Shown here: positions 2,763-59,868 of the stretch, piece by piece | Position numbering within the stretch: the stretch's first letter is position 1 | How the letters are laid out: the number at the start of each line of letters is the position of its first letter | Assembly (NCBI RefSeq): GCF_001625215.2 | Contig: NC_030382.2 | Location: 33,714,610 to 33,778,609 of the forward strand | Source of the DNA: Daucus carota subsp. sativus | Lineage: Eukaryota; Streptophyta; Magnoliopsida; Apiales; Apiaceae | Direction of reading: 5' to 3' | Length of the DNA stretch: 64,000 nt | The notes under the pieces: model-generated | What the model was told of the DNA's origin: nothing | What the model saw: the letters and a program-made list of their open reading frames with translations, nothing else | The model's database searches: none | Made by a program: the position numbers and the translations under genes

Positions 2763-2763
2763 T

Positions 2764-2794
<31 letters not shown>

Positions 2795-26459: not shown

Positions 26460-27226
26460 GGATAAATATCAAGTAAGTCACTTGTTTCGTCCAAATGTAT
26501 CAAATGAGTCACTGATTCCCAAATTGACTCAAATGAGACGCTCATTAGAAAAATTTGTATCAAAAATATCACTCTATCGTTGGTCGAAATTTTGAAAGTA
26601 TTATATATTGAGTTTCGCACATTTTTTATGAATGGTAATACATCCAAATGAAAGATTCCGAGTTCTACTATTTTCGCTTATATTTTCAGATTTTTAAAAT
26701 TTTATCAACTATTTATAATTGAGTCACTGATATACAAATTGACTCAAATGAGACGCTCATTATAAAAATTTGTATCAAAAATATCACTCTATCGTTAGTC
26801 GAAATTTTGAAAGTATTATATTTTGAGTTTTGCACATTTTTTATGAATGGTATTACATCCAAATGAAAGATTCCGAGTTCTACTAGTTTTGCTAATATTT
26901 TTAGATTTTTAAAAATTTATCTCCTATTTATTTTTATTTAAATCAAATAAAACAATCAAAAAATTAAAAATAAATAGTTGATAAAATTTTAAAAATCTGA
27001 AAATATAAGCGAAAATAGTAGAACTCGGAATCTTTCATTTGGATGTATTACCATTCATAAAAAATGTGCGAAACTCAATATATAATACTTTCAAAATTTC
27101 GACCAACGATAAAGTGATATTTTTGATACAAATTTTTCTAATGAGGGTCTCATTTGAGTCAATTTGGGAATCAGTGACTCATTTGATACATTTGGACGAA
27201 ACGAGTGACCTACTTGATATTTATCC
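26460..27226. mobile_element. Foldback element with long inverted arms
   Basis: The ends GGATAAATATCAAGTAAGTC and its inverse (27205-27226) begin arms of about 250 bp that match over their whole length (26460-26715 against the complement of about 26970-27226). The left arm is partly duplicated in tandem (about 26719-26930). Similar open frames on the two strands (26417-26647 minus, 27039-27275 plus) are a by-product of the inverted repeat, not genes. It resembles MULE-type foldback MITEs; the target duplication is unclear. Confidence 0.8.
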
Positions 27227-33480: not shown

Positions 33481-36439
33481 AAGGTGCAGTTGATGACACA
33501 ATGTTGTATAAAAACCGCAAACATACGTAAGATCAGAGGTCTTCTGACCAGTAATGAGCACAAGAAGTACGAGCCTAACTCCACGATAATTTGATATTAT
33601 CTGTTTTGGATCAAGCCTGCATCGCTCTTTTTTTGACATCTCCAAAAGGTCTCTTGTGGAGTTATCTAGCTATTTATATTTTAGCTTTCTACCATGCGCA
33701 GTAACTCCTAACAATCTCCTCCTTCACACATTGGCTTAAACCCATTCTAGGTGCTCCAGCCTGTCTGGTAATCTGCTCCACCTAGGCCATGGAAGGCCTT
33801 CATGTCTCATCCTTAAGCTCATCCAGGATAGCCCAATTGTCTCTCGCTCCCCTTAGACTCATAGTGGAAGTCCGTCTAGCTATCTCCTCCTACGCAAAGG
33901 CCCACCGACCTCTTATTCGGTTCGGTATTTCTCAGTTTGCTTGGAAGTCAAAACCGGTACCAAACCATTCAACTTTCGGTTTCGGTCAGGATCAGTATAA
34001 ATGATTCGATTTTTATCATTTTTACCAGTTTCAGTTATAATTCAGTGTTTATGATAACCCTAAACTAATCAGTCAAGGAGAAGTTTCTAGTGTTTTTTGC
34101 AAGCTCTAATTTCCAGGGATTAGCTACAGACGACACCAGAAAATCTCGGTGATGCTCATTTCCTACTCATTTCTGGAGCTTATTGCAATGCTTATGTTCC
34201 GGAGAGTAGCCAAGGATAACAATATGATATCCAGACAATGCTCTTCTCCCACTCAAGTAGTCTCCCACTCAAGTAGTAGAAGAAGATTATTATAGCAAAT
34301 CCAATGGTTGTGCTAAAATAGGTGCTATTGTAGCACCCAAGCTGAAAACTTTAACTCTAATGAGATGCTAAACTTGAATTTATACTTGGTGCTAAATATA
34401 AAATCAAGTATAGATGGCGGTATAATTGTCACATAAGCATGCAAGTGACAAAATGCATTAATAAAATAATAGTGACAAATATAGTTATGTACTTAAAGAT
34501 TATGTAATTAGAATATGGTTAATTATCTAATTGGGCACTCACTTCACACTAATATATCATCCGGGACACTCTCTAATTTTTGGTCTCATTCGAAACACCG
34601 TTTTCAGAAATTGTATGAATCTTAAAAATAAAATGTTAAATTCGAAAACAAATCGACAGTTTGAGAAGTGTTACTCATGTGGTTTTAACAAAGTAGGCTG
34701 TAGAGATTATACATGTACGATTAATTGAATTTCCACATCCAGAAAATGGGTAAAAATGATGGTGGAAGAGATGGGTTATGAACAACCCTAATAATCCATA
34801 TATAGCCATTTCAAACTTTTTCGAGATTGAAGTGTTAGAGACACGAAGACATACTGTCTGTCTCCAAAGTAATAACATATGCTCACAGCAAACGAAATGA
34901 ACTCTAGGTCTAGGGGTCTGCTGAGCATTAAAACGTTCTTCTACCACCCAACGTTTCATGAGATTGATACAACACAGAAGACTACATGATGGGATAAGAA
35001 AGGACCTGTGAATATATTAAATAACATCTTCTTCTATAGAACAGCGAAAACTGCTTCTGCAAGAACATGTTTCTTCTTGGGGTATCCCATACCAAACATG
35101 TGATTAATATATACCTTTGCATCCTTCACGGTTACTCCAGTGGCGAAACGGTGTCTAACCACCGGAGCCTTCTCCAGTATAGTTGCAGTCTCCCAATCAT
35201 CATTGCTCCCGACTAAACTTATTCCCAACATGCTAGCAACAACAAGCCTGTTTGGAGATAATAGTTCCAGACCATCGGGAAGTGACAAAGATTTGCCAAT
35301 CATTTTCACTAATTTAACCGCATTGTTGTTCATTATATCCACCTTGAAAAGATCTCCAGTGGTTGAATGACTAACTAATAAGTAGCCTTTAGGATGATAA
35401 ACAATCCCGTTAAGGGTTGCTAACTTGTGGTACCATACTGCTGGAGAAAAAATCGGACTTTCTATTGGCAACAAATATTCTCCGCTAACCCCAACCTTCC
35501 AGAGTTTACTCTTATTCAGATCTGTGATGTAAGCATTACCTTCTGCATCCACCGCTACGTCATCTGCCATGGATTTATCTCCTACATGATTGAGTGCAGC
35601 AAACTTATCAGGGCCTATAGTATCTACCTAAGAAAATCTAGAGGAATGAGAATTCAATCCAAAACTGGTAAGAATGAAAGTTAATTTAAATTTATAGAAT
35701 AGAATCAACGGAATTAATAAATGATATACAATAATGTCAAAAAAAAAAAATGTTCAGTTTTTTCCCTTTCCCCTGCAATTATTCATCCGGCTGACCACAC
35801 TCAAAGCAGTGCTTATGCCTTTATTATTGTAGGTTGATAAAGTCAGAATGCATTTAACTAACTTAACTTATTCATCTTCTTTGCTATTGTAGGTTGAGAA
35901 GGCATCTAAGTAGTGTGAATTTTTCAATGCCCTTAGTTATGTGTTTGGTAAAATTAAGACACTGCAAAGTCTAAATTGATGGGGCAATCCTAAGCAGAAG
36001 GAAAGAAGGCCACCTAACATCATACTAATAGCTTCATTATTATCTTGTTTCTAGCATAATTAAACTATACAAGCCATTGAATCTTTTGCATTAACCTGCA
36101 GTATCTTGAGAACAAAAGGAATGCATGAGGAGCTTTTATCAGGATATGAGGCATTTTATCCAACCGTTTGCTGCATTTGTACTTCGACGGGTGCATTTGG
36201 AGGGCAGAGCAAAATCAGATATGATGAATATTTACTACGAGAACGAATCTCTAGACTCTTCTGGCACTAGAGGCCCAATTGTCAATGCTGAGACACACAG
36301 TGTTTCTTAATTTGCTCATTTTCGAATTTTGAATAGCAATAGGTGCTCAAATTTGCACATTCTTATCTTAAACTCCAGTGCAGTTCATCAAAGTTGTAAT
36401 TGATATTTTAAATTTAAATGAGAATGTTGATCAGTTTCA

Positions 36440-36568: not shown

Positions 36569-36811
36569 AATCATGCTAAAAATGGAAATATAAATTAATA
36601 TGAGCGTTTTGTTAAACTAACTAAAAATCTCATAAACGGCAAATCAAGAATCACGAGTGGCAGTTGAAAACAACAGGGGGATCTTTAAGGCTCATTTCAA
36701 GTATGTAATAAATAAATAATTGAATATTAAGAAAAATACCTGGACCACTCAGTTGAGTTAGAAACAAGCGAGACCAATTAGTGAGATCATAAGCAGCAAC
36801 AGCGCTATACT

Positions 36812-37502
36812 TGATAACGCCAATCTCCGATCCTGGTCCTTCCTCCGCCGTGGATGACGGTTCTGCGGTGTAGCTGCTGGAAGGGCTCCTACAAAACAAC
36901 ACCGGAGGGGGGTTTTGGCCCCGCGGCGCCTCCGGCGTGAGAGTAAGAGCAGGCTTTGGAAGGATAAAGACTAGAAAGTGTGTTATCTATATGTGGTGGG
37001 TGAAGGTGTATGTGTGGTGGTTGCTGGTGGCTGGTGGCTGAGAGTATTTAAGTATATGCTGAGTGTAAGTGTGTGTGAGGATGAGTGTAGAGAGTGAAGT
37101 TAACCCTTAAACTCTTGATCCTTGGTCTATTTATAGGCCAGGGATTAGGGTTTAAGGGTGCGTACCTGTATCCTGGTCCTACACGTGTAGGGGTTTGATC
37201 CCCTACACGTGTCCAGGTGTCAGCGTAGAAGTAGTATTTTGGAATGTTCCCTGGCTTGTCTCTATCGCCAGTAGTTGACCGTTATGTTTGTCTTTATCGT
37301 GTCAGTCTGTGTCTTGTGCAGCAAGTGTCGGCTGGTACATGTGTATCCGGGTGAGTAGCGAGTCTCATGTACCCGGGTAAGCAGTCATGTCCGGGTTGTA
37401 TCACCTGTCAAGGCTGGGGATGTCCTGTTGTGTTGGTGGCTACCCGGGCTGGACGTTCCTCTTAAGGGACCCGGGTCCTTTTGCTCGGGTTATACCCTAT
37501 CA
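36812..37502 (-). repeat. 3' LTR of the Tat element
   Basis: 691 bp, from TGATAACGCC to TATACCCTATCA in plus orientation. It lies next to the polypurine tract (complement of 37503-37519, GGGAGTGGGGGGC). It is identical to the other LTR by direct reading. Confidence 0.95.
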
Positions 37503-37920
37503 TTTGCCCCCCACTCCCTTATATAGATTTTCTATGTGAGGGAGTAGAGCGGAGCCTTTGTTCTCGTTTTCGTACCCGGGTGTCTGTGTAAGGGTAATGG
37601 TCTTTGCCCCCCGGCCCGGTGAAGGTGAAATTTTCATGTTTGCCACTTTGATTGTATCCGGGTAACTTGTGTTTGCTCTGCTGCCCGGATAGACCTGTGT
37701 AGGGGCTTTCTTTCGCTTTGGTCGGGGAACGTCACGCCCTGTTCGGTTTTTTGATACCCGGGTTTGGAGGATGTGAAGCGTTTGTAATATGAAGGGGTTT
37801 TAACAGCTGTTTGTTTTGAAAATTGAGCCATCGCGCCTTTTGAGGGGGTGAATTATTACAGCTGTAATAACTTCACTCCCCCCAATAGGAAACTGCCACG
37901 TCACTCCTGATTTGATGGTC

Positions 37921-37929
37921 TATATAAAA
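37921..37929 (+). promoter_or_regulatory. TATA box for the antisense gene of the Tat element
   Basis: TATATAAAA lies on the plus strand, about 420 bp inside the 3' LTR and facing the antisense gene. The leader that follows has a good intron donor (ACG|GTAAGT, 38094) and an acceptor at 38890-38891, four bases before the ATG. Confidence 0.6.
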
Positions 37930-38895
37930 GAGGCTTCTCTTTTACTCTTTGGTTTCTCACTTCGCTTTTATCAGTTTCTCTGTAATTTCTTTCACCGTCG
38001 CTCGAGAGTTGTGTTTTCTCGGAAGGTTTCACTGGGGTCTCGGAGATCGTTGTCGTTGTCATCGCAGTTTTTGGTCCGTCGCTGGTTATCACGGTAAGTC
38101 CCCTTTTCGTCTTCTTTTTTCTTCTCTCTTTTTTTTTTTGCATTTCGGAGCTGTTGTATGTACTTTCGTGTTTTCTTCGTTCGTGCTTTTGTTGATTTCG
38201 TGCTTGCGCTTGCCGTGCTTCTTTGTATTCTTCGTCTTGGTATTTCGTTTTTTCGGTAGATTAGATCATACGCTTGCTGGGTTGTTTGATTTTGGGGTTT
38301 TACGGTGTCTCCTGGGTTTTGTGGTTCGAGTGGCTTTTTGTTTGATTGTTTTTGGTTTGAAAATCTGGGTTTTGTTGAATGTTCTTGATGGGATATATGT
38401 ATGTATATGTGTATAGCGGTTAGGGTTTGAAGTTTGATTTATGATTTTGGTTTGAAATGATTTAGAAACTGTTTGTGGCTGTTGGGATTCTTGGGGTTTT
38501 GACTGAACCCGGGTAGGGATTTCTTACCCGGGTTGGGTAGGCGGCATGAAGATTTTTTTATGTGGGGGGGGAGTACTCGGGTAGAGGTCTCGTACTCGGG
38601 TAGAGGCCTTCTTGTCTCTTGGCACTTGTAAGCCTTCTTATGATGGTGTGGTTATAGGATCGGGATCCGGGTACCATTTCAGTAGCTAGTGGTCTCCCCA
38701 CCGCGTAGATTTGAAAATAGGACCCGGGTGTTGTTTTTCAGAATGATGTGTCCGGGTAGTCGTAGTTACATTCTTGTGATTTCCCAACTTATTGTCCCTC
38801 ACATAGATCTAGGACAGGGTCCGGACCCGTATAAAACTTGTAATAAAACTGGTTGAATTTTGAACTGACCCGGGTTCTTCTTTTCCTTTAGGTCT

Positions 38896-41480
38896 ATGGT
38901 CCGGATCCGTAAGAGGGCCAAGAGAGATATTGTTGCGTTTTCTGGTGTGCCCGGGCAATATTCTAGTGATAGTGAGACCGACGAGTGCCAGTCACTAGCA
39001 GACCGTGCTTGTGAAAAGATGGCTGAGAGGGAGGTGGCTTCATCCGGGGTTGTCTCTGAGTTCCAGAAGGTATCCAAGGCCGAGGGGAAGCAGGTTATCA
39101 TGACCCCGGAGGGTATGTGGATGGATACGAAGTCCTACTTCATCACCAAGGCCCCTCTAGCGGATGAGAGGGAGTTTTACCGGGGAATCTCGTCTTTTTA
39201 TAAATTTAAGCACCCCAACGGTCCTCTGGGTGCTTATGATAAGAAGAAGTTCGATGAGGAGTTTAAAACATATGCTGTTGCCCGGGCTCCGTATCCCGTT
39301 AGGAGTTCCTTTAGGGAATTGCCGTGGAAGGTTCAGGATCGATTGATCCGGGTCTCGTTTCAGCTTCCGGATACGGTCGAATGGCGGTGGCCAGAACCCG
39401 AGGAGAGGATCTATCACCGGCCGGCTGACGGGTTTGTTCCAGTGTGGATGGAACACTTGAGATCCGGGTGGAATCCTAGGTGGCATCTGTTTTTTCGCCA
39501 TCTATGCAAGTATGAATATAAATGCTCCCCGATGCAGATCACTCCTAACGCGATCAAGTGGATGACGTGGTTTCTTTGTGCTTGTAACAAAATGGGGTAT
39601 CAGCCTACTCTCAAGTTGTTCCATATGCTTTTCCAATTTAAGAAGTCCGGGGAAAAGCCGTTGTATGAGCTCCGGTTCCGGTCCAAGGAATGTGGTTTGG
39701 GACCCGGGTTCCTGAAACCGGTGATGCATCAGACTTCTTTAAAGAATTGGAATCGTGAGATCCTGATGCTGAAGGGTCTTGATATTCATTATATGCCGTA
39801 TCTGGTAACTGATGATAAGTTGGTGAGAACCAATTTCGGTGCCCCGAGTGCCACGGGGAAGTTTCGAGATCAGCTGATGGAGTTTTGTGGATGTCTCGGG
39901 CAGCAACTGACCCGGGATACCTTTATGCAATTCGATAAGTTACATGAATGGGGATGTGAGTTTCCTTTGCTTTTTGTCGTGTAGGATGACCCGGATCTTC
40001 TGTTTGCCTTATTGTCTCGTTTCTGTTGTATTTTGTACTTAGAAAATTTCTCGAAGTATATGTAAACGGATGGATCCGGGTAATATTTACCCGGGTGTTG
40101 TATTTGGCACTTATTACTTCTTTCTCTCGTGTTTGTGTGTTTTGATATCTTGCTTGTCTATACTTGTTTATGTGACCCGAGTATTGACTTGTGCTTGCAG
40201 GTTTGCCGTATTTTGTTAAGGATCCTTGGAAGAAGATGTCTAACGACTCTTTTGCTGTGGCTTTAAGGAACTTGGGGGGAACTCACACAATCCCAAAGCC
40301 TGCTGCCAAGTCCAAATCTGGGTCAGGGAAAAATGATGAATCCGGGTCCTCCCAGCAAGGAGCGGCTGGTGGAGAGTCAAGTGTTGCCGTGGAAAAAGTT
40401 GCCCTCGGGATGACTGCCGAGGTTCAGGAGTCTGGCAGCCCGGATCTTGTTACCCGGGGGACGAAGAGGAAACAGCCCTCGGCGAGGAAGGCTCCTGCGA
40501 AGATTCCTAAGTCCAAATCCGATCAGGGCAAAGAGATAATGGTGGGGTCCGAGTCTGACTCCGATGAGAGTGAGGATCCGGAGAGGGAAGATACCCGGGT
40601 TGTTCTCGGTGCTGGCAAGTACTCAGCAAGGGAGATAATCAAGTTGATGTCTGGTATCCCAACTGATGAGGATTGGGTGAAGATGGATGACACCGGATTG
40701 GTTAATACCTTCAGAGAGATTGGGAGTCTTTGGGGCCAGGTAGATTCGATTTTGGCCTTTGTTTCTTTTGTCTTATTCCCAAGTCAATATTTTATCTTTT
40801 AGGCTGTTAACTTTGTGGGTCCGGGTTTGCAGCTTGGAGCTCGGTTGGCCGGGTTCAACACTATGGCTTTTGAGGTTATCAAGTCGGAGAGGGACACTGC
40901 TGACGCATGCGGCGAGAGGACCCGGAAGGCCGAGTCGAGCTTAGCTCAGGAGAAGTCGGAGAGGGAGAAGCTGGAATCTGAGCTGGAAAGGCGGGTGAAG
41001 GAGGCCGAGACCCGGATGCAGGCCGCGTGGAAGGAGAAAGTGGACGATGCTGAGGCCCGATCTGTTGATGCCGAAAAGAAAGCGTCCGGGTTCGAGGAGG
41101 AAGTGGGCGTCCTGAAGAGAACCCTAGAGGAGAGGAAAGAGGCTGGGGTTGTCATTGCCGAGTTTCAGAAGTCGACAGCGTATGCCGATGCTCTTAATCA
41201 TGCTGCGGCAGCGGAGGTGGTCCGGTGTTGGCATGTGGCTGAGCGGCATATTAAATCCGATCCGGGGGCTAATCTTCAGAGTTTCATAGAGGCGTACCTT
41301 GCCGCTAAGGACAACATCAAAGCCGGGAAGGGGGAACCTGAACCTTACGAAGGTCCTTCTCCGAGTTTTATTGTTCCTGCCAACCCGGGTAACCATGTTG
41401 TTCTGACTACTTCGGATGTGCCCGTTGATCCGGATTCTCAAGCCAACAACTCTTCAGCGAACGATCCTCCTGTCCTCTAG
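38896..41480 (+). CDS. Spliced antisense gene of the Tat element (putative gypsy-type transposon protein)
   Basis: Three coding exons, 38896-39955, 40201-40739 and 40803-41480, join in phase to 758 aa. A 5' UTR intron (38094-38891) is likely. The N-terminal half has a basic start (RIRKRAKR) and a conserved-looking globular region with CKYEYKCSPMQITPNAIKWM. This resembles the plant 'putative gypsy type transposon' proteins (PF04195-like). The middle has nuclear-signal-like KRKQPSARKAPAK, and the C-terminal third is a long coiled coil (ESELERRVKEAETRMQAA). The strand is opposite to the polyprotein. Its role in the element is unknown. Confidence 0.75.
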
Positions 41481-41689
41481 CTTTTATTTCCTTTGATTCT
41501 GAACATGTTGTCCGAAACAATCTTTTGTGACTCTGAATTAGTTTTTGCCGGATTTGAATATTTATCCGAGGTCCGTGTGGACCCGGGATGTGGATGCTTG
41601 CTTTGCTGCTTTTTATCAAATATTTTCCTGTCATATTTGTTTGTGAATGTTTTGTATGCTTTATGTATTCCAGATTGGCTGTTTGCAAT

Positions 41690-42720
41690 ATTTCTGTACT
41701 TAGAAAATTTTCTAAGTAATTGTAACGCAGGTGTGCCCGGGTCAGTCGTACCCCGGGTGGGTTGCTTTTAGGAAACTTTGTACTTAGAAAATTTTTCTAA
41801 GCAGAGATAATTGTAGTTGTGCCCGGGTAGAATGTACCCGGGTTGATTGCTTGAAATGGCCCGGGCAACGTCTACCCGGGTTGATTGTTTTATACATGTT
41901 TCCACTTAGAATTTTTCTAAGTAATGAAAATAGATGGACCCGGGCAATCGTCTACCCGGATTGATTGCTTTATATATGTTTGCACTTAGAAATTTTCCTC
42001 AGGAAATAAAATAGATGGACCCGGGCAACATACACCCGGGTTGATTGCTTTAATATGTTTGCACTAAGAAAATCTTCTAAGTAAATAAAATAGATGGACC
42101 CGGGGAGATCTTTCCCGGGTTGATTGCTTAAATATGTCTGCACTTAGAGTTTTTTCCAAGTAAAATAAAAAAGATGGACCCGGGCGATGCTTACCCGGGT
42201 TGATTGCTTGAATATGTCTGCACTTAGAATTTTTTCCAAGTAAATGAAATGGATGGACCCGGGCGACTTCCACCCGGGTTGATTGCTTTAGTATGTTTGT
42301 ACTTAGAAATTTTTCCAAGTAAATGAAATGGATGGACCCGGGAAACGTCTACCCGGGTTGATTGCTTTAATAAGTTTGTACTTAGAAATTTTTCCAAGTA
42401 AATGAAATGGATGGACCCGGGCAACCGCTACCCGGGTTGATTGCTTTAATATGTTTGTACTTGGAAATTTTTCCAAGTGAAATGGATGGACCCGGGCAAC
42501 CGATACCCGGGTTGATTGCTTTAATAAGTTTGTACTTAGAAATTTTTCCAAGTAAATGAAAGTGGATAGACCCGGGCAATATTTACCCGGGTTGGTTGCT
42601 TACATAGTTTTGTACTTAGAAATTTTCCAAGTTAATGATTGTATAGATGGACCCGGGTATACCATGCCCGGGTAGCTTGCTCGACATGTTTTGGTTGCCT
42701 TAGAAATTTTCCAAGTAAAT
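41690..42720. repeat. CCCGGG-bounded tandem array, about 13 units of about 79 bp
   Basis: Each unit has two CCCGGG sites about 15 bp apart (ACCCGGGCAACCGCTACCC type), then GGTTGATTGCTT, then a short hairpin-like ACTTAGAAATTTTTCCAAGT. Units start near 41733, 41820, 41860, 41938, 42018, 42099, 42178, 42257, 42336, 42416, 42489, 42570 and 42651. It separates the converging 3' ends of the antisense gene and the polyprotein gene. Open frames across it are repeat artefacts. Confidence 0.92.
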
Positions 42721-42855
42721 AGTAACACAGATTCATCAATCAGTAAAAGACTCCATTGATATATTAAACCTATTACACAGCTTTGAGGATGACCAAAAGT
42801 ACATGATTGCTTTTAGGTATATATAGCTGTCTTCTAGGATCCTTCCTTCTTGATT

Positions 42856-45800
42856 TTACTGATAGAACTTCCTCAACCTAAGACCATGCCAGGTGTTGGA
42901 TACTTCTGACCCATCCATATGCTCCAATTTGTAGGTGCCCGGCCTTAGGACTTCTCTGACTTTGTAAGGGCCTTCCCACTTAGGCATTAGCTTTCCTGTG
43001 TTAGTTGGATCTGAGGCTTCGGTGTCTCGTAGGACCAGGTCCCCTGCTTGAAAATTTCTAACCCGGGATTTCTTGCTGAAGTGGTCCCGGGTCTTCTCTT
43101 TGTACTTTTCCATTCTTGCGATTGCCTGATCTCGGACCTCATCTACCAAGTCCAGGTTGACCCGGAGTCCTTCCTCGTTTGCAATTTCGTCGAAGTTGAT
43201 TACTCTGTGGGAAGGTGACCCGACTTCGATTGGGAGCATTGCCTCCGTTCCATAGGCCAACTTGAAAGGGGTTTCTCCGGTGCTTGTCCGGGGACTGGTT
43301 CGGTATGACCAAAGGACATGAGGTAGTTCTTCTGGCCATTTGCTCTTGCTTTCTTCAAGTCTCTTCTCAATTCCTCTCAGGAGGATCCGGTTGGTGACCT
43401 CTACCTGGCCATTTCCTTGAGGATAGGCGACTGAAGACTTCTTGTGCTTGATGCCTCTTTCGGCCAGGTAGCTTTCAAAGTCTGACCCGATGAACTGGGG
43501 TCCATTATCTGAGACCAGGACTCTTGGTAGCCCGAATCTCATCAGGATGTTGTCCATGAACCGGATGACATCTTGTTGATTGATCGTCCGCATTGCCTTG
43601 GCCTCAACCCACTTGGTCATATAATCAATGGAGACAAGCAAGTATCTGAGGTCTCCTTTAGCCCGGGGGAAGGGTCCCATGATGTCTATCCCCCATACAG
43701 CAAAGGGGATCGGGGATAAGACCGAGGAGGGTAGGACGGGGCTTACCCGGGGCACGTTGCTGAATAGCTGGCAATTTTTGCACTTCTTAACAAACTCGAC
43801 GGAGTCTTGATGAATTGTTGGCCAGTAGTAGCCTTGCCGGATGATTTTATAGGCCAGGCTTTTTGCCGACATGTGATCTCCACAGATCCCTTCGTGAACT
43901 TCCCTCAGACAGTATTCGGCTTCCTCCGGACCTATGCATTTCAGGATTGGGGATGAGTAGGTCCGGCGGAAGAGGATCCCGCCTTCTACGAAAAACTTTG
44001 CTGCCTTAGCTTTTAGTCTTTGAGCTTTTCCCTTGTCCTCGGGTAACTCTCCTTTTTCTATGTAGTTGATCAGGGGAGTCATCCAGGTAGGGTCGTTGTT
44101 GATTTCAAAGATTTCTTCCTGCTCTATTGTGGGTTTGTGCAACTCTTCGAAATACACTGAGCTATCCAGGTCTGCTGAATTTTGGACCAACCTGGAGAGG
44201 TTGTCTGCCTCCGCGTTTTCTTCCCTGCTGACTTGCAAGATTTTGTACCCGGGGATCAGGGTAAGGTAGCTTTTCACCAAGGCTTGATACCTGGTCAGAA
44301 TTGGGTCTTTGGCGAGGTATTCCCCGTTTGTCTGCCTGACCACAATTTGTGAGTCGCTGTAAATGGTCAGGTTTTGGATAGACAGGGTCCGGACTAATTT
44401 CAACCCTGCTAGAAGAGCTTCGTATTCCGCTTGGTTGTTGGTTGCTGCGAAACCGAAGGAGATTGCTGTTTTGATTGTGAACCCATCCGGGCTTTTCAGG
44501 ATTAGCCCGGCTCCTGACCTTTCGGTTGTTGAGGAGCCGTCAACATGGAGTGTCCAAGACCCCGGGTTTGACTCTACCGGGGCTTCTGGTTCAGTTTCCA
44601 TGGGAGTTGATTGGTTTTCTGGGAAGTTGCATTCCACCACGAAGTCTGCCAGGACCTGGGCTTTGACCGCTGTCCGGGGTAGGAAGGTTAGGCTGAACTG
44701 GCTAAGTTCAATTGCCCAGTTGACTAGTCTCCCGGAGATGTCTGGCTTGTGAATGATTTTCCTTAGGGGCTGGTCGGTGACAATCCTGATCTCTCTTCCT
44801 TGAAAGTAGTGTCTGAGTTTCCTGGATGCGGTGATCAGTGCAAACGCAAATTTTTCTAAGTTGGGGTATCTGGTCTCCGCATCTTTGAGGACCTGGCTAA
44901 CATAGTAGACGGGCTTCTGCTGCCCGGCTTCTTCCCTGATCAAGGCTGCCCCGACGGCAAAGGGACCGGCAGACAGATATAGGTAGAGAGGTTCTCCAGG
45001 TAAGGCTTTTGTCAGGATTGGGGGTTTGGACAGGTATGCTTTGATTTCATCAAGGGCTCTTTGGCAATCCGGGCTCCATTCTACCAATTTCTGGTTTTTT
45101 GCCCCTTTTAACAACTCAAAGAATGGTAGGCATCTTTCGGCGAGTTTGGAGACAAACCTTCGGAGTGCCGCTAAGGACCCTGCTAGCTTTTGGACCTCCC
45201 TCTGAGTCCGGGGTGGTTGCATCTCTTGCACAGCTTTGATCTTCTCCGGGTTGGCCTCGATACCCCGGTTGCTTACCATAAAACCCAAAAACTTTCCAGC
45301 CTCTACTCCAAAGGTGCACTTGTCCGGGTTGAGCTTTAGCTTAGTCCTTCTCATGTTCTCGAAACATTCTTTTAGATCAGAAATGTGACCCGGGACCGAA
45401 GTGGATTTGGAGATGATGTCGTCGACGTAGCATTCCAAATTTCTTCCAAGTTGATCTTTGAAAATTTCATTCATGGCTTTTTGGTATGTGGACCCGGCGT
45501 TCCTTAACCCGAAAGGCATCAGTTTGTAGGCATAGACCGCTCGATGGGTTATGAATGCTGTTTTGGCTATGTCTGCTGGGTTCATCTTAACCTGATTGTA
45601 CCCGGAGAAGGCGTCCATAAAGCTTAACATCAGGTGTCCTGACGTGGCATCAATGAGCTGATCGATGCTCGGTAGAGGATAAGGGTCCTTGGGGCATGCT
45701 GCATTCAGATCCGTGTAGTCGACACACATCCTCCACTTGCCGTTTGCTTTCTTTACCATGACTACGTTAGCTAGCCACTCCGGGTATTTGATCTCGCAGA

Positions 45801-48642
45801 TGATATCTGCCTTCATTAACTTGCCAACTTCCTCATCTATTGCCTTCTGCCTTTCTGGTGCGAAATTTCTTCGTTTTTGTTTGACTGGTTTCTTCTCGGG
45901 GTCCACATCCAGGCTGTGCATTGCTAGTGACTCGTCCAACCCGGGCATGTCGTCCGGGCTCCAGGCAAAAACATCTGCGTAGCTCCGAAGTAGTTGGATG
46001 AGTTCTTCTTTAAAGACGGTATCCAAGCCTTTTCCAATTTTGATTTTCCTTGTCGGGTTGTCTTTTTCGATCAGGACCGATTCGGTCTCGACCGCAGCTT
46101 CGACCTTGGTTAGTTCTTGTGCCGAGATCATTTGCTGGATCCGGGCGTCAGTGTTCTTTTCCACAAAATGTTGAGCTGAGCTCATGGTTGCTTTCTGGTT
46201 GCTTTGTCCAGGACCAGGATTGGTGGCTCCCGGGTTGGTGTTACCCGGGTCAAGTTCGATCACCTGGACTTCTCCTTTGGGATTTGTTTTCGGGTAAGGT
46301 CGGTGTTTTTTGTTGCTCTTCTGTTTTTGAAAAACGGTTGCCTTTCTCTTGTTGTCCAGGTGTGTTTCTGCCATGACCAAAGCTTGGCTATAACATACCC
46401 CGGCTGTCGCCGAGTCTCCTTTGACTTCTCCTACCCCGAACGGGGTGGGGAATTTGAACTTCAGGTGTGGAATGGATGTGATAGCTTCGATCTTGTTCAG
46501 ACCTGGGCGGCCGATGATCACGTTGTAAGGTGAGGGTGTATCTGTGACATAGAATTTGATGGTATGAGTGACTTGGTTCGGAAGGGTTCCGAATCGGACC
46601 GGGAGATAGAGTGTGCCAAGGACCGGGACAATGCTATTCCCGAACCCATATAGAGGATCCTCCCTGTAGTCGTTCATCCGGATACTCCCGAGCTCCATTC
46701 GATCCATGGTGTGCTTGAACAAGATGTTGGCTGAGGAGCCGTTGTCCACCAGGATCCTCCTTACTTCATTTTCGGCCATGTCAAGGGTCACTACCAGGGC
46801 TTGATTGTGACCCCGGGTGACTCCTTCAAAGTCCTTGTTGCTGAAGGAAATTACTTGTTCGGGGAAGGTTTGGATGGACATTACTTCTTGACAGGAGCCC
46901 GGGCTAGGGGGAGGTGAACAAGATCCTCCCAGCACTACGTTGACAATGTTTTTCTGTTTCCCGGATCCCCCCGTTTTGTCGGCTGTATTCCGGGCTATAT
47001 ATTGCCCCATGTTTCCTTTACTGATTTGCTCTTCAATGAAGTACTTGAGGGATATGCAATTTTCAGTTTTATGACCATGGGTACCATGGTAGTCACAGTG
47101 TCTGTTGGTAGGTCTGCTTTCAGGAGGAGTTTGCATGGGTTTTGGTGGGTAGTAGAAGGGTTTGTCCCGGACCTCTTTGAGTATGTCCTCCCGGGGTCTG
47201 TTTAGAGGAGTCCATTCGGGCTCTGGTTTTGGTTCCCTGGTTGCTTTGTTTGGACCAGGGTCACTTCTGGACCCGGATCCCTGTTGGCTGGTTCTCTTGG
47301 AACCTGATTGCTGGATGAAGTTTGTCTGTCTGTCCGGTTTGAATTTCTTATCCTGGTGATATTCTTTCCTGGGTCTATCTTCGACTTGTTTTCCTTTTGA
47401 ACTGCCCTGTCGGGTCATCCTCATTGCTTGGAGCACATCGGTCTCCTTAATGAATTTTGCAGCCATGGCGTAGGCAGCTGCCAGGCTTTGGGGCTCTTTG
47501 TTGATTAATTCGACCACATATCTCTCATTTTGTTCCGGGTCCAGGTTCCTTCGGAATATGCTCAGAGCCTCACGCTCATCCAGGTTGGAAATTTTGTTGA
47601 TTGCTTCCTGGAAACGTTTCATGTAGTCTGAGAGTGCCTCATTGTCATATTGGCGAACCGTTTCCAGGTGACACATATGGAGTTCATGTGTCTTGTTTGC
47701 TCGAAACCTTCTGAGGAAGGCTTCCCTGAAATCTTTCCAGGACCCGATGCTCCGGGAGGGGATCCGGCTGAACCATCTCTGGGCCCCTCCCTTGAATGTG
47801 GATGCGAAGAAGCGGCACTTGGTCAGGTCATTGTAGTAGTAGATCTGGGCTATCTGTTCAAAGTAGTGCAGATGCTCCTCCGGGTCTCCCAGTCCGTTGA
47901 AAGATTCAAAATTGTAGTGTTTCATACCCTTTTGTCGGGGTATGGATTCCAAGGAGTGGCTGAAGGGAGTCAGGGTTCCCCCAATTTCAAGCCCGGCATC
48001 ATTCCCAATTTTCCTGTTGAGCTCATTGATCATGTCTCTGAGGTTGGTTTGCCCCGGTCTCTCATCCTCGTCATCAGAGATGAGTTCGGGTGTTGTTTCC
48101 TTTCGGTAGCGCTTGGACCGGGATCCTTTTGTTAACTTTTCCTCCTCGAGTTGGATCCGGAGGGCGATTTTTTGCTCAAGTTTTTCCTCTTCCTCTTTTC
48201 GGATCTGTTCTTTCCTTTCAGCCAAAATTTTCAACCGGGTTTCCTCACTTTCCTTTTGTTTCTTTTTCTTTGCTTTGTCTCCGATCCGGTCGAATACGGA
48301 ACCCCGGGATTGACGACTGTTCCCGGAGTCCTCGGATTCACCGATGTCCTCAAGTCTGCGGTTGCTTTCCCGGCGATCATGGTACTGCCGGATGGCTTCG
48401 GCCAACTCTATATTGGTGAGCTGGGACAGGTGGAGGGTGGTGATCGGGACATCGGTGTACTTGTACTGGTTTGCTTCGATCGTGACCCGGGCATCATTGG
48501 GGTGGATTGCTTGGTTCTCGTCCGGGTTCACATGGGTGAAAAGTGGTCCCGAGGCATGATCCTGGTTTGGGTTATCCTGGTCTGTCTGAGGGTTATCCGG
48601 GTTCTGAGGAAGACCCAGGTGGGAGCGTGTCCTTTTTGTCAT
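42856..48642 (-). CDS. Gag-Pol polyprotein of the Tat element
   Basis: One open frame of 1,928 aa without a frameshift. In order: a charged coiled-coil N-terminus; the retrotransposon gag domain (WFSRIPSRSIGSWKDF); a CDYHGTHGHKTENC zinc-knuckle variant; an aspartic protease (VDNGSSANILF, the variant usual in this lineage); reverse transcriptase (LMLSFMDAFSGYNQV, YVDDIISKS); an RNase H; a second, archaeal-type RNase H (WTLHVDGSSTTERSGAG..YSDSQIVV); and an integrase with HHCC zinc finger and DDE core (WGIDIMGPF, VSDNGPQF). It ends in WHGLRLRKFYQ with no chromodomain. All catalytic motifs I checked are present. Confidence 0.95.
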   Translation of the reverse strand: MTKRTRSHLGLPQNPDNPQTDQDNPNQDHASGPLFTHVNPDENQAIHPNDARVTIEANQYKYTDVPITTLHLSQLTNIELAEAIRQYHDRRESNRRLEDIGESEDSGNSRQSRGSVFDRIGDKAKKKKQKESEETRLKILAERKEQIRKEEEEKLEQKIALRIQLEEEKLTKGSRSKRYRKETTPELISDDEDERPGQTNLRDMINELNRKIGNDAGLEIGGTLTPFSHSLESIPRQKGMKHYNFESFNGLGDPEEHLHYFEQIAQIYYYNDLTKCRFFASTFKGGAQRWFSRIPSRSIGSWKDFREAFLRRFRANKTHELHMCHLETVRQYDNEALSDYMKRFQEAINKISNLDEREALSIFRRNLDPEQNERYVVELINKEPQSLAAAYAMAAKFIKETDVLQAMRMTRQGSSKGKQVEDRPRKEYHQDKKFKPDRQTNFIQQSGSKRTSQQGSGSRSDPGPNKATREPKPEPEWTPLNRPREDILKEVRDKPFYYPPKPMQTPPESRPTNRHCDYHGTHGHKTENCISLKYFIEEQISKGNMGQYIARNTADKTGGSGKQKNIVNVVLGGSCSPPPSPGSCQEVMSIQTFPEQVISFSNKDFEGVTRGHNQALVVTLDMAENEVRRILVDNGSSANILFKHTMDRMELGSIRMNDYREDPLYGFGNSIVPVLGTLYLPVRFGTLPNQVTHTIKFYVTDTPSPYNVIIGRPGLNKIEAITSIPHLKFKFPTPFGVGEVKGDSATAGVCYSQALVMAETHLDNKRKATVFQKQKSNKKHRPYPKTNPKGEVQVIELDPGNTNPGATNPGPGQSNQKATMSSAQHFVEKNTDARIQQMISAQELTKVEAAVETESVLIEKDNPTRKIKIGKGLDTVFKEELIQLLRSYADVFAWSPDDMPGLDESLAMHSLDVDPEKKPVKQKRRNFAPERQKAIDEEVGKLMKADIICEIKYPEWLANVVMVKKANGKWRMCVDYTDLNAACPKDPYPLPSIDQLIDATSGHLMLSFMDAFSGYNQVKMNPADIAKTAFITHRAVYAYKLMPFGLRNAGSTYQKAMNEIFKDQLGRNLECYVDDIISKSTSVPGHISDLKECFENMRRTKLKLNPDKCTFGVEAGKFLGFMVSNRGIEANPEKIKAVQEMQPPRTQREVQKLAGSLAALRRFVSKLAERCLPFFELLKGAKNQKLVEWSPDCQRALDEIKAYLSKPPILTKALPGEPLYLYLSAGPFAVGAALIREEAGQQKPVYYVSQVLKDAETRYPNLEKFAFALITASRKLRHYFQGREIRIVTDQPLRKIIHKPDISGRLVNWAIELSQFSLTFLPRTAVKAQVLADFVVECNFPENQSTPMETEPEAPVESNPGSWTLHVDGSSTTERSGAGLILKSPDGFTIKTAISFGFAATNNQAEYEALLAGLKLVRTLSIQNLTIYSDSQIVVRQTNGEYLAKDPILTRYQALVKSYLTLIPGYKILQVSREENAEADNLSRLVQNSADLDSSVYFEELHKPTIEQEEIFEINNDPTWMTPLINYIEKGELPEDKGKAQRLKAKAAKFFVEGGILFRRTYSSPILKCIGPEEAEYCLREVHEGICGDHMSAKSLAYKIIRQGYYWPTIHQDSVEFVKKCKNCQLFSNVPRVSPVLPSSVLSPIPFAVWGIDIMGPFPRAKGDLRYLLVSIDYMTKWVEAKAMRTINQQDVIRFMDNILMRFGLPRVLVSDNGPQFIGSDFESYLAERGIKHKKSSVAYPQGNGQVEVTNRILLRGIEKRLEESKSKWPEELPHVLWSYRTSPRTSTGETPFKLAYGTEAMLPIEVGSPSHRVINFDEIANEEGLRVNLDLVDEVRDQAIARMEKYKEKTRDHFSKKSRVRNFQAGDLVLRDTEASDPTNTGKLMPKWEGPYKVREVLRPGTYKLEHMDGSEVSNTWHGLRLRKFYQ

Positions 48643-49066
48643 GGTTTCAAGAACTTACACAGGGTGTATGGTCGCTGCTTTGGTGGTAGTGCCCACAGAT
48701 AGTATAGATAGTGACAGGATGACAAAAATAGTGTGCACCAGTAGTCAACTTACTATTTTCAGAGATACCACAAATAGTTAAGTGACAAAATGTGTGCAGG
48801 TGTGAGACAAAAGATTTTATGTGCTACAGACAAGATTAGGGTTTTGCTCAGACAGGGTTTGCTAACATGCTCTACTACAGACAAATTTAGGGTTTTGTTC
48901 AGGTGAGGTTTTCTATCATGCACATATCAAGAAAAGCCATGGCTGAGGGTTCTGAGAAGATGGGTGTTTGGTGAGAGCTTACTGGTGTTATTCGGACCCC
49001 CGTTTCAGGGGTTTGTTGTAGGAGATGAGTCCAGTGGCACCGTGACCACAGGACAGAGGACACCTT

Positions 49067-49084
49067 CCCCTCCTTCTAGCGCCA
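49067..49084 (-). other. Primer binding site of the Tat element
   Basis: Two bases inside the 5' LTR the sense strand reads TGGCGCTAGAAGGAGG. TGG pairs with a tRNA CCA end. I cannot name the tRNA with certainty. Confidence 0.65.
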
Positions 49085-49086
49085 AA

Positions 49087-49777
49087 TGATAACGCCAATC
49101 TCCGATCCTGGTCCTTCCTCCGCCGTGGATGACGGTTCTGCGGTGTAGCTGCTGGAAGGGCTCCTACAAAACAACACCGGAGGGGGGTTTTGGCCCCGCG
49201 GCGCCTCCGGCGTGAGAGTAAGAGCAGGCTTTGGAAGGATAAAGACTAGAAAGTGTGTTATCTATATGTGGTGGGTGAAGGTGTATGTGTGGTGGTTGCT
49301 GGTGGCTGGTGGCTGAGAGTATTTAAGTATATGCTGAGTGTAAGTGTGTGTGAGGATGAGTGTAGAGAGTGAAGTTAACCCTTAAACTCTTGATCCTTGG
49401 TCTATTTATAGGCCAGGGATTAGGGTTTAAGGGTGCGTACCTGTATCCTGGTCCTACACGTGTAGGGGTTTGATCCCCTACACGTGTCCAGGTGTCAGCG
49501 TAGAAGTAGTATTTTGGAATGTTCCCTGGCTTGTCTCTATCGCCAGTAGTTGACCGTTATGTTTGTCTTTATCGTGTCAGTCTGTGTCTTGTGCAGCAAG
49601 TGTCGGCTGGTACATGTGTATCCGGGTGAGTAGCGAGTCTCATGTACCCGGGTAAGCAGTCATGTCCGGGTTGTATCACCTGTCAAGGCTGGGGATGTCC
49701 TGTTGTGTTGGTGGCTACCCGGGCTGGACGTTCCTCTTAAGGGACCCGGGTCCTTTTGCTCGGGTTATACCCTATCA
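49087..49777 (-). repeat. 5' LTR of the Tat element
   Basis: 691 bp. On the sense (minus) strand it has a TATAAATA promoter box at 49410-49403 and, about 46 bp upstream of it, an inverted repeat holding two G-boxes (49456-49487). Confidence 0.95.
49456..49487. promoter_or_regulatory. Double G-box palindrome in the LTR promoter
   Basis: Two 13-bp perfect arms (ACACGTGTAGGGG and its inverse) are separated by 6 bp, each containing CACGTG. The copy in the other LTR is at 37181-37212. G-boxes bind bZIP and bHLH factors, so light- or stress-linked transcription is possible; this is inference. Confidence 0.7.
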
Positions 49778-50283
49778 ATACTTGTGCCCAAACGGATCCG
49801 ATATGACGACCACGACGCGGTTCCTCTTGCTGTCAATGGTGAGCCCCAGAGTTGCATTTCCGTATAAATCGGCGTCTTTGACAACGGGAATCTCATGGAG
49901 GACTGAAGTGGTGGTGGTGTTGGAAATGGGGATGATGCCGAGGCCGCCTTCCATGAAGGAGACAATGAAACGGCTGTTGAGGGCGTCGTATTTGGAGCAT
50001 TCTCGGAGGAAGCCGGCGGAGTGGAAGTGGTACTGGTGGGAGGAAGGTGTGGCGGATTCTAGAGAGATGAGAATGGCTATGGGAATGGCTGAGATTAGGA
50101 GGGTCAGGAGGACGAATCTTGTTGAACACAAGAAACCCATCAGAGAGATTCAGAGAGAGAGAGATTTTGAGAGAGATGAGCTGAGCAGTTGACTGTAGCC
50201 TGCAGGGGAATGGGAGGGAATAAAAAATACTTGGCATAAATTTTAACGACAAACATAATTTATACTCCTCCATGCAATCCTAA

Positions 50284-51934: not shown

Positions 51935-54164
51935 CTATAGAACAGCGAAAACTGCTTCTGCAAGAACATGTTTCTTCTTGGGGTATCCAATACCAAACAA
52001 GTGATTAATATACACCTTTGCATCCTTCACGGTTACCCCAGTGGCCAAACGGTGTCTAACCACTGGAGCCTTCTCCAGTATAGTTGCAGTCTCCCAATCA
52101 TCATTGCTTCCGACTAAACTTATCCCCGACATGCTAGCAACAACAAGCCTGTTCGGAGATAATAGTTCCAGACCATCCGAAAATGACAAAGATTTGCCAA
52201 TCATTTTCACTAATTTAACCTCATTGTTGTTCATTATATCTACCTTGAAAAGATTTCCGGTGGTTGTATGACTAACTATTAAGTAGCCTTTAGGATGATA
52301 AACAATCCCGTTAAGGGTTGCTAACTTGTGGTACCATACCGCTGGAGAAAAAATCGGACTTTCTATTGGCAACAAATATTCTCCGGTAACCCCAACCTTC
52401 CAGAGTTTACTCTTATTCAGATCTGTGATGTAAGCATTACCTTCTGCATCCACCGCTACGTCATCTCCCATGGATTTATCTCCTACATGATTGAGTGCAG
52501 CAAACTTATCAGGACCTATAATATCTACCTAAAAAAAGCTAGAGGAACGAGAATTCAATCCAAAACTGGTAAGAATGAAAGTTAACTTAAATTTATAGAA
52601 TAGAATCAACGGAATTAATAAATGATATACATAAATGTTTAAAAAAAAATGTTCAGTTTTTTCCCTTTCCCCTCCAATTATCATCCGGCCGACCACACTC
52701 AAAGCAGTGCTTATGCCTTTATTATTGTAGGTTGACAATGTCAGAATGCATTTACCTAATTCATCTTCTTTGCTATTGTAGGTTGAGAATGCATCTAACT
52801 AGTGTGAATTCTTCAATGCCCTTAGTTATGTGTTTGGTAAAACTAAGACACTGCAAAGTCCAAATTGATGGGGCAAACCTAAGCAGAAGTAAAGAAGGCC
52901 ACCTAACATCATGATAGCTTCATTTTCAAAGAAAGTTAACCAACTTATTATTACTTGTTTCTAGCATAATTAAACTATACAAGTCATTGAATCTTTTGCA
53001 TTAAAAGATGGCAAGGTAACCTGCAGTATCTTGAGAACTAAAGGAATGCATGAGGAGCATTTATCAGGATATGAAGCATTTTCTTCTACCGTTTGATGCA
53101 TTTGACTTGGACAGGTGCATTTGGTGGGCAAAGAAAACTCAAATATAATGAATATTTACCAGGAGAATAAAAATCTAGACCACTTCTGGCACTAAAAGCC
53201 CAACTGTCACCGCTGAGACACACAGTGTTTCCAATTTGCTCGTTTTTGACTTTTAAGCGGCAATAGGTGCTCAAATTTGCACATCTTATTTTTGAATTTC
53301 AGCACAGTTTATCAAAGTTCTATTTGGTTTTTTAAATCAAATACAAAATGTTGATCACTTTCACTCCCAATCTAAACTCGGTTATCAGATTATGATAACA
53401 CATTCTTTTCTGTCTGTTTACATGATTTTCGAGTATTTAAGCTTAGATGGAACCCGAATTCAGTTCAAATTAAAAAAAAACTTATGTTAACATCATTTTT
53501 CGCAGAAATAATCTCAAGCACATATACTTATGACAAAAAATAGAAGAGCATTTTTTGCAACCGGAATGGAAACTAAAAATCCCATATTCCAATAAACGCC
53601 AAATCAGGAATCATGAGTGGCAGATGAAAACAACAGGAGGATCTTTAAAGCTCATTTCAAGTATGTAATAAATATACACACCTATCCAATTTGGTACTAA
53701 ATAAATAATTAAATATTAAGAATAATAATAATACCTGGACCACTTAGTTGAGTTAAAAACAAGCGAGACCAATCAGAGAGATCATAAGCAGCAACAGCGC
53801 TGTACTTGTTCCCCAACAAGTCCGATATGACTACCACGACGCGGTTCCTCTTGCTGTCAATGGTGAGACCCAGAGTTGCATTTGTGTATAAATCGGCGTC
53901 TTTGACGACGGGAATCTCGGGGAGGACTGAAGTGGTGGTGGAGTTGGAAATGGGGATGATGCCGAGGCCGCCTTCCATGAAGGAGACGATGAAACGGCTG
54001 TTGGGGGCGTCGTATTTGGAGCATTCTCGGAGGAAGCCGGAGGAGTGGAAGTGGTACTGGTGGGAGGAAGGTGTGGCGGATTCTAGAGAGATGAGAATGG
54101 CTATGGGGATGACGGAGATTAGGAGGGTCAGGAGGACGAATCTCGTTGAACACAAGAAACCCAT
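51935..54164 (-). CDS. NHL/SMP-30-type beta-propeller protein, copy 2, intact
   Basis: Relative of Arabidopsis At2g01410. Exon 1 is 54164-53735 and exon 2 is 52524-51935, joined in phase to 339 aa. The N-terminus is a signal-anchor helix (FVLLTLLISVIPIAILI), then RECSKYDAPNSRFIVSF and propeller-type strands (GDDVAVDAEGNAYITDL, WETATILEKAPVVRH). The protein should be secreted or face the lumen. The superfamily includes strictosidine-synthase-like proteins and Ca-dependent phosphotriesterases; the substrate here is unknown. It is closely similar to copy 1, so the duplication is fairly recent. Its upstream region is interrupted by the MULE 138 bp before the ATG. Confidence 0.85.
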
Positions 54165-54301: not shown

Positions 54302-54726
54302 GGCTCCCTCTCATTTCTAACCAATTTATTCAACCACTTTTCAAAACTAACCAGTTTTTTTTCGAGAAAACGCGACCTGAACGAAAAACTTTTTACAGCA
54401 CGGGTCGCGCTTTGAAACAGCGACCCAAACACAAAAAACCCCATTGGGGTCGCTCTTTCAAAGAGAGACCCATGCTGTAAAAAGTTCCATATGGGTCGCC
54501 CTTTGAAAGAGCGACCCATATGGGTTATTTTAAAAAAAAAATTCAAAAATCGGAAAATATTATTTCAAAGGGCGACCCATATTATTTATATTATAATATT
54601 TTATAATATAATTTATATAATGATATAATATAAAAATATTTTATATTATATAGTGATACATTATTTGTGATATTATATTTTATATTATTATATTATGTAA
54701 TGATATAATATAATATTATAGATTGT
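54302..54726. repeat. Left terminal inverted repeat of the MULE
   Basis: The outer 250 bp hold GGGTCGC..GCGACCC palindromes; the inner part is almost pure A/T. It matches the complement of about 61076-61597. Confidence 0.9.
54402..54517. repeat. Three 25-bp palindromic boxes in the MULE end
   Basis: Imperfect palindromes of the form GGGTCGC-N11-GCGACCC lie at 54402-54426, 54447-54471 and 54493-54517, spaced 45-46 bp start to start. A half-box follows near 54570. Counterparts occur in the right end. Confidence 0.88.
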
Positions 54727-55077
54727 AATATTATATTTTTTAATTTAATTTAATTCGGAAATATTTTTTCCTTTATCTAATTTTTACCTAATATTTTTTT
54801 ATTTACCTAATATTTATAGTTTATTAATTATTTATCTAATATTTAAAGTTTTATTTACCTAATATTAAAATGTGATGCAGAGAATTATTTTTTGAGGAGT
54901 GTGCAAATAATTTTGATTGTATGGTCACATCTAAGGCAGTAGGTTTTTTAGCTTTTTATTACAAAACATTGATTTAACACTGGACAAAGCTGCCAACTTC
55001 ATTGAAATCATTCAAGAATTCAATAAGCCAGCCTGTTGTTACTGCTCAAATATTCACTTTTTTGCTGAGAGGACGTT

Positions 55078-55974
55078 TAAAGTCATGCAATTATGTGTTT
55101 TTAAACAGTGTGCAATAGCTTTTTTCGTATTGTCACATCCTCACATTTAACACATAGTGCAGCATGCAATAATATCAATGGATTTATGCAGTAGCTTGTT
55201 CAGAGAATCATTCATTACTTTATTGCTCATTGATAGATTGACTGCATACCAATAAGTGGACACAAAAATTGCATGCACTATTGAAGCACAGTGGTTAACT
55301 TTGAAATTCGTCCTTAAAAGCTGAAGCATTTGAAATTCGTCCTTAAAAGTCTCAATTTAATTTAACGGTTATATAATATAAAATATATAATGTAAATAAT
55401 AAATATATATATAAATTAAAGATTGAAAAATATATATATATATATATATATTTATTTATATATATATATATATATATTATATATATGTGTGTATATATGT
55501 ATATTATTTAATGTATTTTTCTAAAGAGTGTGAAAAAAATTTAAAACGTATGGTCAAATCATCTGTTTGCAATTATGATTTTTTTGAAAGTGTGCATCAT
55601 CTGTTTGCAATTATGAGCTCGTTTAAAGTCATGCAATTATGAGTTTTTGAACAGTGTGCATCAGCTTTTTTTGTATGGTCACATCCCTCACATTTAACAC
55701 ATAGTGCAGCATGCAATAATATCAATGGATTTATGCAGTAGCTTGTTCAGAGAATCATTCATTACTTTATTGCTCATTGATAGATTGACTGCATACCAAT
55801 AAGTGGACACAAAAATTGCATGCACTATTGAAGCACAGTGGTTAACTTTGAAATTCGTCCTTAAAAGCTGAAGCATTTGAAATTCGTCCTTAAAAGTCTC
55901 AATTTAATTTAACGGTTATATAATATAAAATATATAATGTAAATAATAAATATATATATAAATTAAAGATTGAA

Positions 55975-56047
<73 letters not shown>

Positions 56048-56438
56048 TGTGTGTATATATGTATATTATTTAATGTATTTTTCTAAAGAGTGTGAAAAAA
56101 ATTTACAACGTATGGTCAAATCATCTGTTTGCAATTATGATTTTTTTGAAAGTGTGCATCATCTGTTTGCAATTATGAGCTCGTTTAAAGTCATGCAATT
56201 ATGAGTTTTTGAACAGTGTGCATCAGCTTTTTTTGTATGGTCACATCCCTCACATTTAACACATAGTGCAGCATGCAATAATATCAATGGATTTATGCAG
56301 TAGCTTGTTCAGAGAATCATTCATTACTTTATTGCTCATTGATAGAGTGACTGCATACCAATAAGTGGACACAAAAATTGCATGCACTATTGAAGCACAG
56401 TGGTTAACTTTGAAATTCGTCCTTAAAAGCTGAAGCAT
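55078..56438. repeat. Triplicated block of about 550 bp upstream of the transposase
   Basis: Two full units and one partial unit share the marker CACATTTAACACATAGTGC (about 55142, 55689, 56251). Each full unit contains a (TA)n microsatellite (about 55430-55490 and 55978-56045), which accounts for the length difference. A 60-codon minus-strand frame recurs in each unit, without signs of being a gene. The last unit ends next to the transposase leader. Confidence 0.92.
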
Positions 56439-56548
56439 TTGTGGTTGCCTATCCACAAAACCATCATCACTTGAAAAAACCTCATTGGCAAGCTATCAGA
56501 AAACCAAAACCACCAAAATCAAACCACTCCAAAAAAACCAAAACAAAG

Positions 56549-59412: not shown

Positions 59413-59745
59413 TTTAATTGCCATTTTCTTTTTAGTCCTTGTTTTTAATTGTTAATTTGTATTTTCCTTTTCAGTCCTTGTTTTTTATTGTTACTCTGTA
59501 TTTTTCTTTCGTTTTTTATTGTTAATCCAATTTTGTTAATTAATTTAATGTAATGGTGTTGAAGCAATAAATAAACTTCAAGGAAACAGAAGCATTCGGG
59601 ACAAGATATTACACACTGGCAAAAGAAAGGCTGTAAAGAAAAGATTCTGCTCAGTTAAAGGACAATATATAATAAAGTAAAGTGATGTGAAAAGAAAGGC
59701 TGTATAGATTAGACTACACACTGGCAAACCATAGCAAGCAACGAA

Positions 59746-59868
59746 ATAATGCTCATATTCACATGATCAACAGTTGTATCTCATAATGCTGATATTCACA
59801 TGATCAACAGTTGTATCTCATAATGTTGATATTCACATGATCAACAGTAGTATCTGATAATGCAGAGG
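59746..59868. repeat. 37-bp tandem repeat, three units
   Basis: ATTCACATGATCAACAGT recurs at 37-bp spacing between the transposase gene and the second MULE gene. Confidence 0.85.

Follow-up and report, generated by a model that had tools for sequence, protein, structure and literature searches.

The 64,000-nucleotide stretch of the carrot genome analyzed here (C2:33714610-33778609, referred to as the window) contains a gene whose first exon is interrupted by a long insert, which raises the question of what this insert is, how recently it arrived, and what its closest relatives reveal about the way in which such elements are copied. The answer held with high confidence is that a full-length, probably autonomous carrot Retand element struck exon 1 of one gene of a tandem pair, splitting the coding sequence (CDS) by 13 kb. 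On the same reading, the insertion probably dates from the last few tens of thousands of years, with an upper limit of about 0.2-0.3 Myr, and the element is one of a young set of recombining copies. The structure of the element, its TSD, its identical LTRs, a near-identical sister copy, and mosaic relatives were all found directly in the genome, of which 441,086,747 bases on 11 contigs were searched.

The host gene lies on the minus strand, where its exon 1 occurs as a 5′ part at 49783-50140, beginning with the ATG at 50140, and a 3′ part at 36740-36811, giving a total of 430 bp when the TSD is counted once. Its exon 2 (35034-35614, minus strand) is open. An uninterrupted tandem paralogue on the same strand possesses an exon 1, likewise of 430 bp, at 53735-54164 and an exon 2 at 51935-52515. 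As the preliminary description had noted, exon 1 without the insert has the length of that of the paralogue; the two are collinear and contain no indel. The end coordinate of 50140 given there coincides with the ATG of the host gene. The spliced CDS, with splice sites read from the sequence and not from RNA, measures 1,011 bp in both paralogues, with 48 differences and no internal stop, corresponding to a dN of 0.032, a dS of 0.106, and a dN/dS of ~0.31. Apart from the insertion, the split gene carries no lesion. These last two observations indicate that the pair was under constraint and that the break looks recent, in agreement with the earlier proposal that the allele was disrupted very recently.

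Concerning the encoded protein, Pfam searches with the single host exons returned nothing, while the spliced paralogue gave only sub-threshold matches to Str_synth, Mala_s_1-like, and NHL profiles (E 0.17-0.26). Sequence comparison with solved chains likewise yielded weak matches, some of which were to propellers, the best E being 0.006, and the predicted fold of exon 2 alone had a mean pLDDT of 35, too low to use. The beta-propeller label attached to the host gene, which derives from these sub-threshold profile matches and the weak chain matches, is thus uncertain. Next to the paralogue, a MULE with MuDR and MULE domains occupies 54303-61597 and lies ~140 bp upstream of the ATG; its inverted ends measure ~460 bp (87%), and its TSD is 11 bp long (TAATTTAACCG). 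With the Retand copy in exon 1, both members of the pair have a transposable element in or adjoining their coding sequence. Elsewhere in the window, at 26460-27226, inverted repeats of 257-471 bp with 88-98% identity perhaps represent a MITE or fold-back element.

The insert is bounded by the TSD ATACT at 36807-36811 and 49778-49782 and lies on the minus strand, thus sharing the orientation of the host gene. Along this strand, the order is 5′ LTR, PBS, leader, gag-pol, tandem array, antisense ORFs, PPT-like tract, and 3′ LTR. The 5′ LTR (49087-49777, minus strand) and the 3′ LTR (36812-37502, minus strand) match at 691 of 691 positions. A TATA box, TATAAATA, is present in the 5′ LTR at 49403-49410 (minus strand), and we infer that R-U5 of this LTR extends over approximately 49087-49370. 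The PBS (49067-49084, minus strand) is complementary over 18 nt to the CCA-bearing 3′ terminus of tRNA-Asn(GTT), while the PPT-like stretch adjoining the 3′ LTR at 37503-37520 (minus strand) was read directly and presumably functions as such. GC content in 2-kb steps is 0.44-0.50 within the element, as against 0.36 and 0.34 in the neighboring steps.

Between these signals, a gag-pol frame of 1,932 codons stop-to-stop without internal stop spans 42856-48654 on the minus strand, with its first Met at residue 5. On the same strand, Pfam identified a gag domain (47539-47814; PF03732, E 1.1e-16), a reverse transcriptase with a YVDD motif (RT; 45277-45756; PF00078, E 5.3e-29), a first RNase H (RH; 44695-44997; PF17917, E 1.5e-20), a second RNase H of the RVT_3 type (aRH; 44191-44544; PF13456, E 2.3e-13), and integrase (INT) zinc-binding and core domains (43426-43926; PF17921, E 5.2e-9, and PF00665, E 2.9e-13). 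Toward the 3′ LTR follow a tandem array with a 79-bp unit in 10.1 copies (41856-42657) and the antisense part of the element on the plus strand. The latter consists of two open stretches in a single frame with one stop between them (40188-41480) and an ORF with a Transposase_28 (TRP28) domain (38869-39984; PF04195, E 1.5e-7). Both of the former stretches recur in the C3 and C6:35.44-Mb copies discussed below, and splicing of an intron across the separating stop is possible.

A structurally complete element is thus supported, with LTRs, PBS, PPT-like tract, gag, RT, RNase H, integrase, and an antisense TRP28 ORF. Checked for autonomy, it has gag, RT, RH, and INT in an open frame by Pfam, whereas a protease is suggested only by a DNGSS motif at residue 637 of the gag-pol frame, which would be the protease site. 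The Pfam search of the element gave no protease match, and this is counted against the explanation given above. In its account of the element, the preliminary description proved right on the identical 691-bp LTRs, the intact ATACT duplication, and the stop-free polyprotein of 1,928 aa; its apparently complete Tat retrotransposon also stands, subject to the same qualification for the protease, and within Tat the structure is that of Retand.

Because element and gene both lie on the minus strand and the LTR contains a TATA box, transcription of what is left of the exons could in principle be driven by the 3′ LTR, so that the host product would not be fully abolished. As the first 358 bp of the CDS (119 codons) are severed, such an outcome is considered rather unlikely.

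The assignment of the element to Retand (Tat, Ty3/gypsy) is made by structure. Its polyprotein carries two RNase H domains (RT_RNaseH and RVT_3), a combination described as unique to Tat in the consulted sections of Neumann 2019 (PMC6317226). By the Pfam coordinates aRH lies between RH and INT, the position that the same sections report for Ogre and Retand. Between these two, the antisense ORF at 38869-39984 with its PF04195 domain points to Retand; according to the same sections, 23% of Retand elements have Transposase_28 and 57% of Ogre elements have the plant mobile domain, a mark of Ogre, and no plant mobile domain occurred among the Pfam matches of the element. In the consulted part of Vicient 2025 (PMC11963269), 97% of the young Retand clusters are reported to contain antisense TRP28 ORFs and about half of them to contain tandem arrays, with ranges of 315-1,194 bp for the LTR, 7,380-12,869 bp for the internal region, and 2,933-6,566 bp for the region from pol to the 3′ LTR. 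The corresponding sizes of the window copy, calculated from coordinates, are 691, 11,584, and 5,353 bp, all of which fall inside the published ranges. It resembles the Retand elements of these two sources (PMC11963269, PMC6317226) in the position of aRH, the antisense TRP28 ORF, the tandem array, and the long region between pol and the 3′ LTR, and the young Retand set of Vicient 2025 in combining identical LTRs with a TSD.

Carrot is absent from the 63 clusters of Table 1 in that study, the full list of which comprises 122 clusters. The Retand lineage in carrot is nevertheless already known, as 493 intact DcRetand copies with a mean age of 1.24 Myr were counted in an earlier carrot assembly (Kwolek 2022, PMC9324142, in the part consulted). 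DcRetand comes from the same species and, judged by structure, falls in the lineage of the window copy, but neither the window copy itself nor the mosaic, the PBS features, or the details of the host gene are mentioned in that part of the source. There, the larger eccDNA clusters from callus are placed in ten LTR-retrotransposon subfamilies, all Copia, which is counted against a probably autonomous young Retand. Viewed on its own, the window element is a very young but ordinary member of Retand.

The age of the insertion was estimated from its LTRs and from a sister copy. With 0 differences over 691 positions, the one-sided 95% upper bound is 310 ky at a substitution rate of 7e-9, or 167 ky at 1.3e-8. 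The latter is the rate used by Kwolek 2022 (PMC9324142), as stated in the part consulted. A second copy with the same LTRs was identified at C3:5535107-5548074 by an LTR search in which 40 of 383 candidates were scored; its TSD is AAATG and its flanks differ from those of the window copy. Over 12,968 bp, the two copies are distinguished by 7 substitutions and one 2-bp indel (99.93% identity). Polarization of the substitutions, with the C6:35.44-Mb copy as the main reference, placed 4 as new in the window copy and 2 in the C3 copy, leaving 1 unclear. The two copies would accordingly have split ~22 ky ago (8.8-45) at 1.3e-8 or 41 ky ago (16-84) at 7e-9.

Close relatives are similarly young. A 1-kb RT fragment is matched at 100% in four copies and at 99% in a fifth, the next match being 94% (40 of 393 candidates scored). 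Among 16 LTR pairs, which are the closest LTR or RT matches and not a random sample, 8 are identical (one of them, L024/25, over 681 bp only), 3 have 1 difference, and 5 have 2-13, and two further pairs beyond the 16 are also identical. A convincing TSD was lacking in four of the 16 (L022/23, L024/25, L030/31, and L038/39). Young copies are thus the usual case among the closest relatives of the window element.

Identity between LTRs can also arise by gene conversion, a process known in general for LTRs, and this is counted against the preferred explanation. Combined with the difficulty of assembling repeats, it allows for an older insertion whose LTRs were secondarily made identical by conversion or by assembly collapse. 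This is very improbable in view of the C3 copy, which in other flanks and with another TSD retains 99.93% identity over the whole element, each of the two copies having private changes. The host gene without other lesion and the recurrence of identical LTRs in 8 of 16 pairs argue in the same direction. A very young insertion, as originally described, is therefore retained on the basis of 0 of 691 LTR differences and only 7 substitutions relative to the sister copy, and the preliminary description was right overall on both facts and recency.

A further relative is the copy at C6:35439222-35452267 (L044, L045), whose body is near-identical to the window copy but whose LTRs both contain a foreign R-U5. 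Each LTR differs from that of the window copy at 61 sites in LTR positions 408-691, whereas the rest of the element outside the array shows 18 differences in all (1 per U3, 2 within the leader, 4 within gag-pol, and 10 within the non-array 3′ region); the array itself has 17. The two LTRs of the C6 copy are identical to each other, and their foreign R-U5 is 77% identical to the one replaced. The first difference of the block is located 40 bp beyond the beginning of the TATA box TATAAATA, and from there the block extends to the LTR end beside the PBS. It thus spans the interval of minus-strand strong-stop DNA and is read as a transfer of strong-stop DNA from another RNA. In the proposed pathway, which is the usual one, the RNA would start slightly downstream of the LTR TATA box, tRNA-Asn would prime at the PBS, and strong-stop DNA (R-U5) would pass to the 3′ R, either on its own packaged RNA or on another one; the 3′ end of the tRNA would then be copied back into the PBS before integration. 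We read the R-U5 block of the C6 copy as the footprint of an inter-molecular first-strand transfer. A precedent is provided by ONSEN in Arabidopsis, for which most LTR recombinants fit a first template switch via R homology, according to the consulted part of Sanchez 2017 (PMC5668417). ONSEN is, however, a different family studied in transposition bursts, while the carrot copies form a natural set in a reference genome with R-U5 regions that are only 77% identical.

The block could instead have been introduced at the DNA level, by conversion or ectopic crossing-over. Other mosaics in the family break elsewhere, the majority of significant LTR breaks falling at positions 100-200, and the C2:55.12-Mb copy (L046, L047) shares gag-pol alone with the window copy. 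In that copy, gag-pol is 100% identical (rounded, in 300-bp steps) at element positions ~1200-6000, whereas most of the remainder is 76-98% identical, with LTRs, leader, and 3′ part of another sublineage; it is read as reflecting another exchange. For the C6 copy, conversion or crossing-over would require two events, since the block is present in both of its identical LTRs. The block also begins close to where transcription is expected to start and continues as far as the end of the LTR, the interval of minus-strand strong-stop DNA. A DNA-level origin is hence judged unlikely, and strand transfer during reverse transcription remains the preferred reading.

A family-wide clustering of LTR breakpoints at the transcription start was also considered and rejected. 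For this, 14 elements were compared in 91 pairs, the C3 copy and C7:32.87 Mb being left out as near-duplicates of others. Breaks stronger than any obtained in 60 permutations were seen in 70 pairs, with 53 of them at LTR positions 100-200 and 7 at 350-460. Two elements with divergent U3, C5:0.52 and C9:32.35, are involved in 21 of the 22 strongest breaks listed. Near-identical U3 and leader joined to divergent R-U5 were seen only in window/C6:35.44 and C3/C6:35.44 among the 25 most discordant pairs listed. The lack of such clustering in the wider family is counted against the main explanation.

The PBS may preserve a trace of the second transfer. Twelve genome sites carry a 3′ end matching PBS 49067-49084 (exact pattern), 10 with C59 and 2 with G59, complementarity at the two G59 sites being 17 of 18 positions. 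All 10 loci scanned are tRNA-Asn(GTT), one of them (L057) in the G59 form. Nucleotide 18 of the PBS is G in the window copy, which fits C59, and C in the C3 copy (C3:5547354-5547381), which fits G59. Genome-wide, PBS sites with exact flanks have G at this position in 70 cases and C in 2, the second being a different element (L088, C8:32892964-32892991) with 92% identity to the window copy; neither A nor T was found at such sites, nor were variants at nucleotide 17. A C is likewise present in the C5 copy L084, which is 86% identical over the compared 5′ stretch, but there the flank is altered in a way for which the tRNA does not account. Of 46 copies examined, 3 yielded no PBS. In HIV-1, the 3′ end of the tRNA is copied as far as m1A58 (PMC13191261, in the part consulted).

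The fit of the C3 copy to a minor tRNA-Asn isodecoder (G59) is suggestive, on the strength of few events. An ordinary mutation matching the minor tRNA-Asn by chance has a real, though smaller than even, probability. Such a mutation would be in keeping with variation at just 2 of 72 exact-flank sites and with the altered flank of L084, but all three variants are C, the base that would be templated by the minor tRNA, in three diverged elements (L088 with 92% identity to the window copy, L084 with 86% over the compared 5′ stretch), and the lack of A and T at exact-flank sites points the same way. The alternative, considered about as likely as not, is that plant Ty3/gypsy Retand elements inherit sequence from the priming tRNA, the PBS recording the tRNA-Asn isodecoder up to nucleotide 18 beside A58; together with the R-U5 swap, this would constitute a natural map of both strand-transfer steps. 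Literature searches, based on titles and hence weak evidence of absence, returned no title on a tRNA-isodecoder footprint in plant elements.

Taken together, the window element and its sister copies carry unusually clear marks of element copying and recombination. Among these, the new details that might be of specialist interest are the swap of R-U5 and the dimorphism of the PBS. In a crop genome, very recent movement of the Retand lineage has split a gene, and the insertion provides a ready presence/absence marker. Natural variation among the sister copies would moreover separate two steps of reverse transcription, namely the RNA source of R-U5 and the tRNA source of the PBS, for which induced or laboratory systems are otherwise used.
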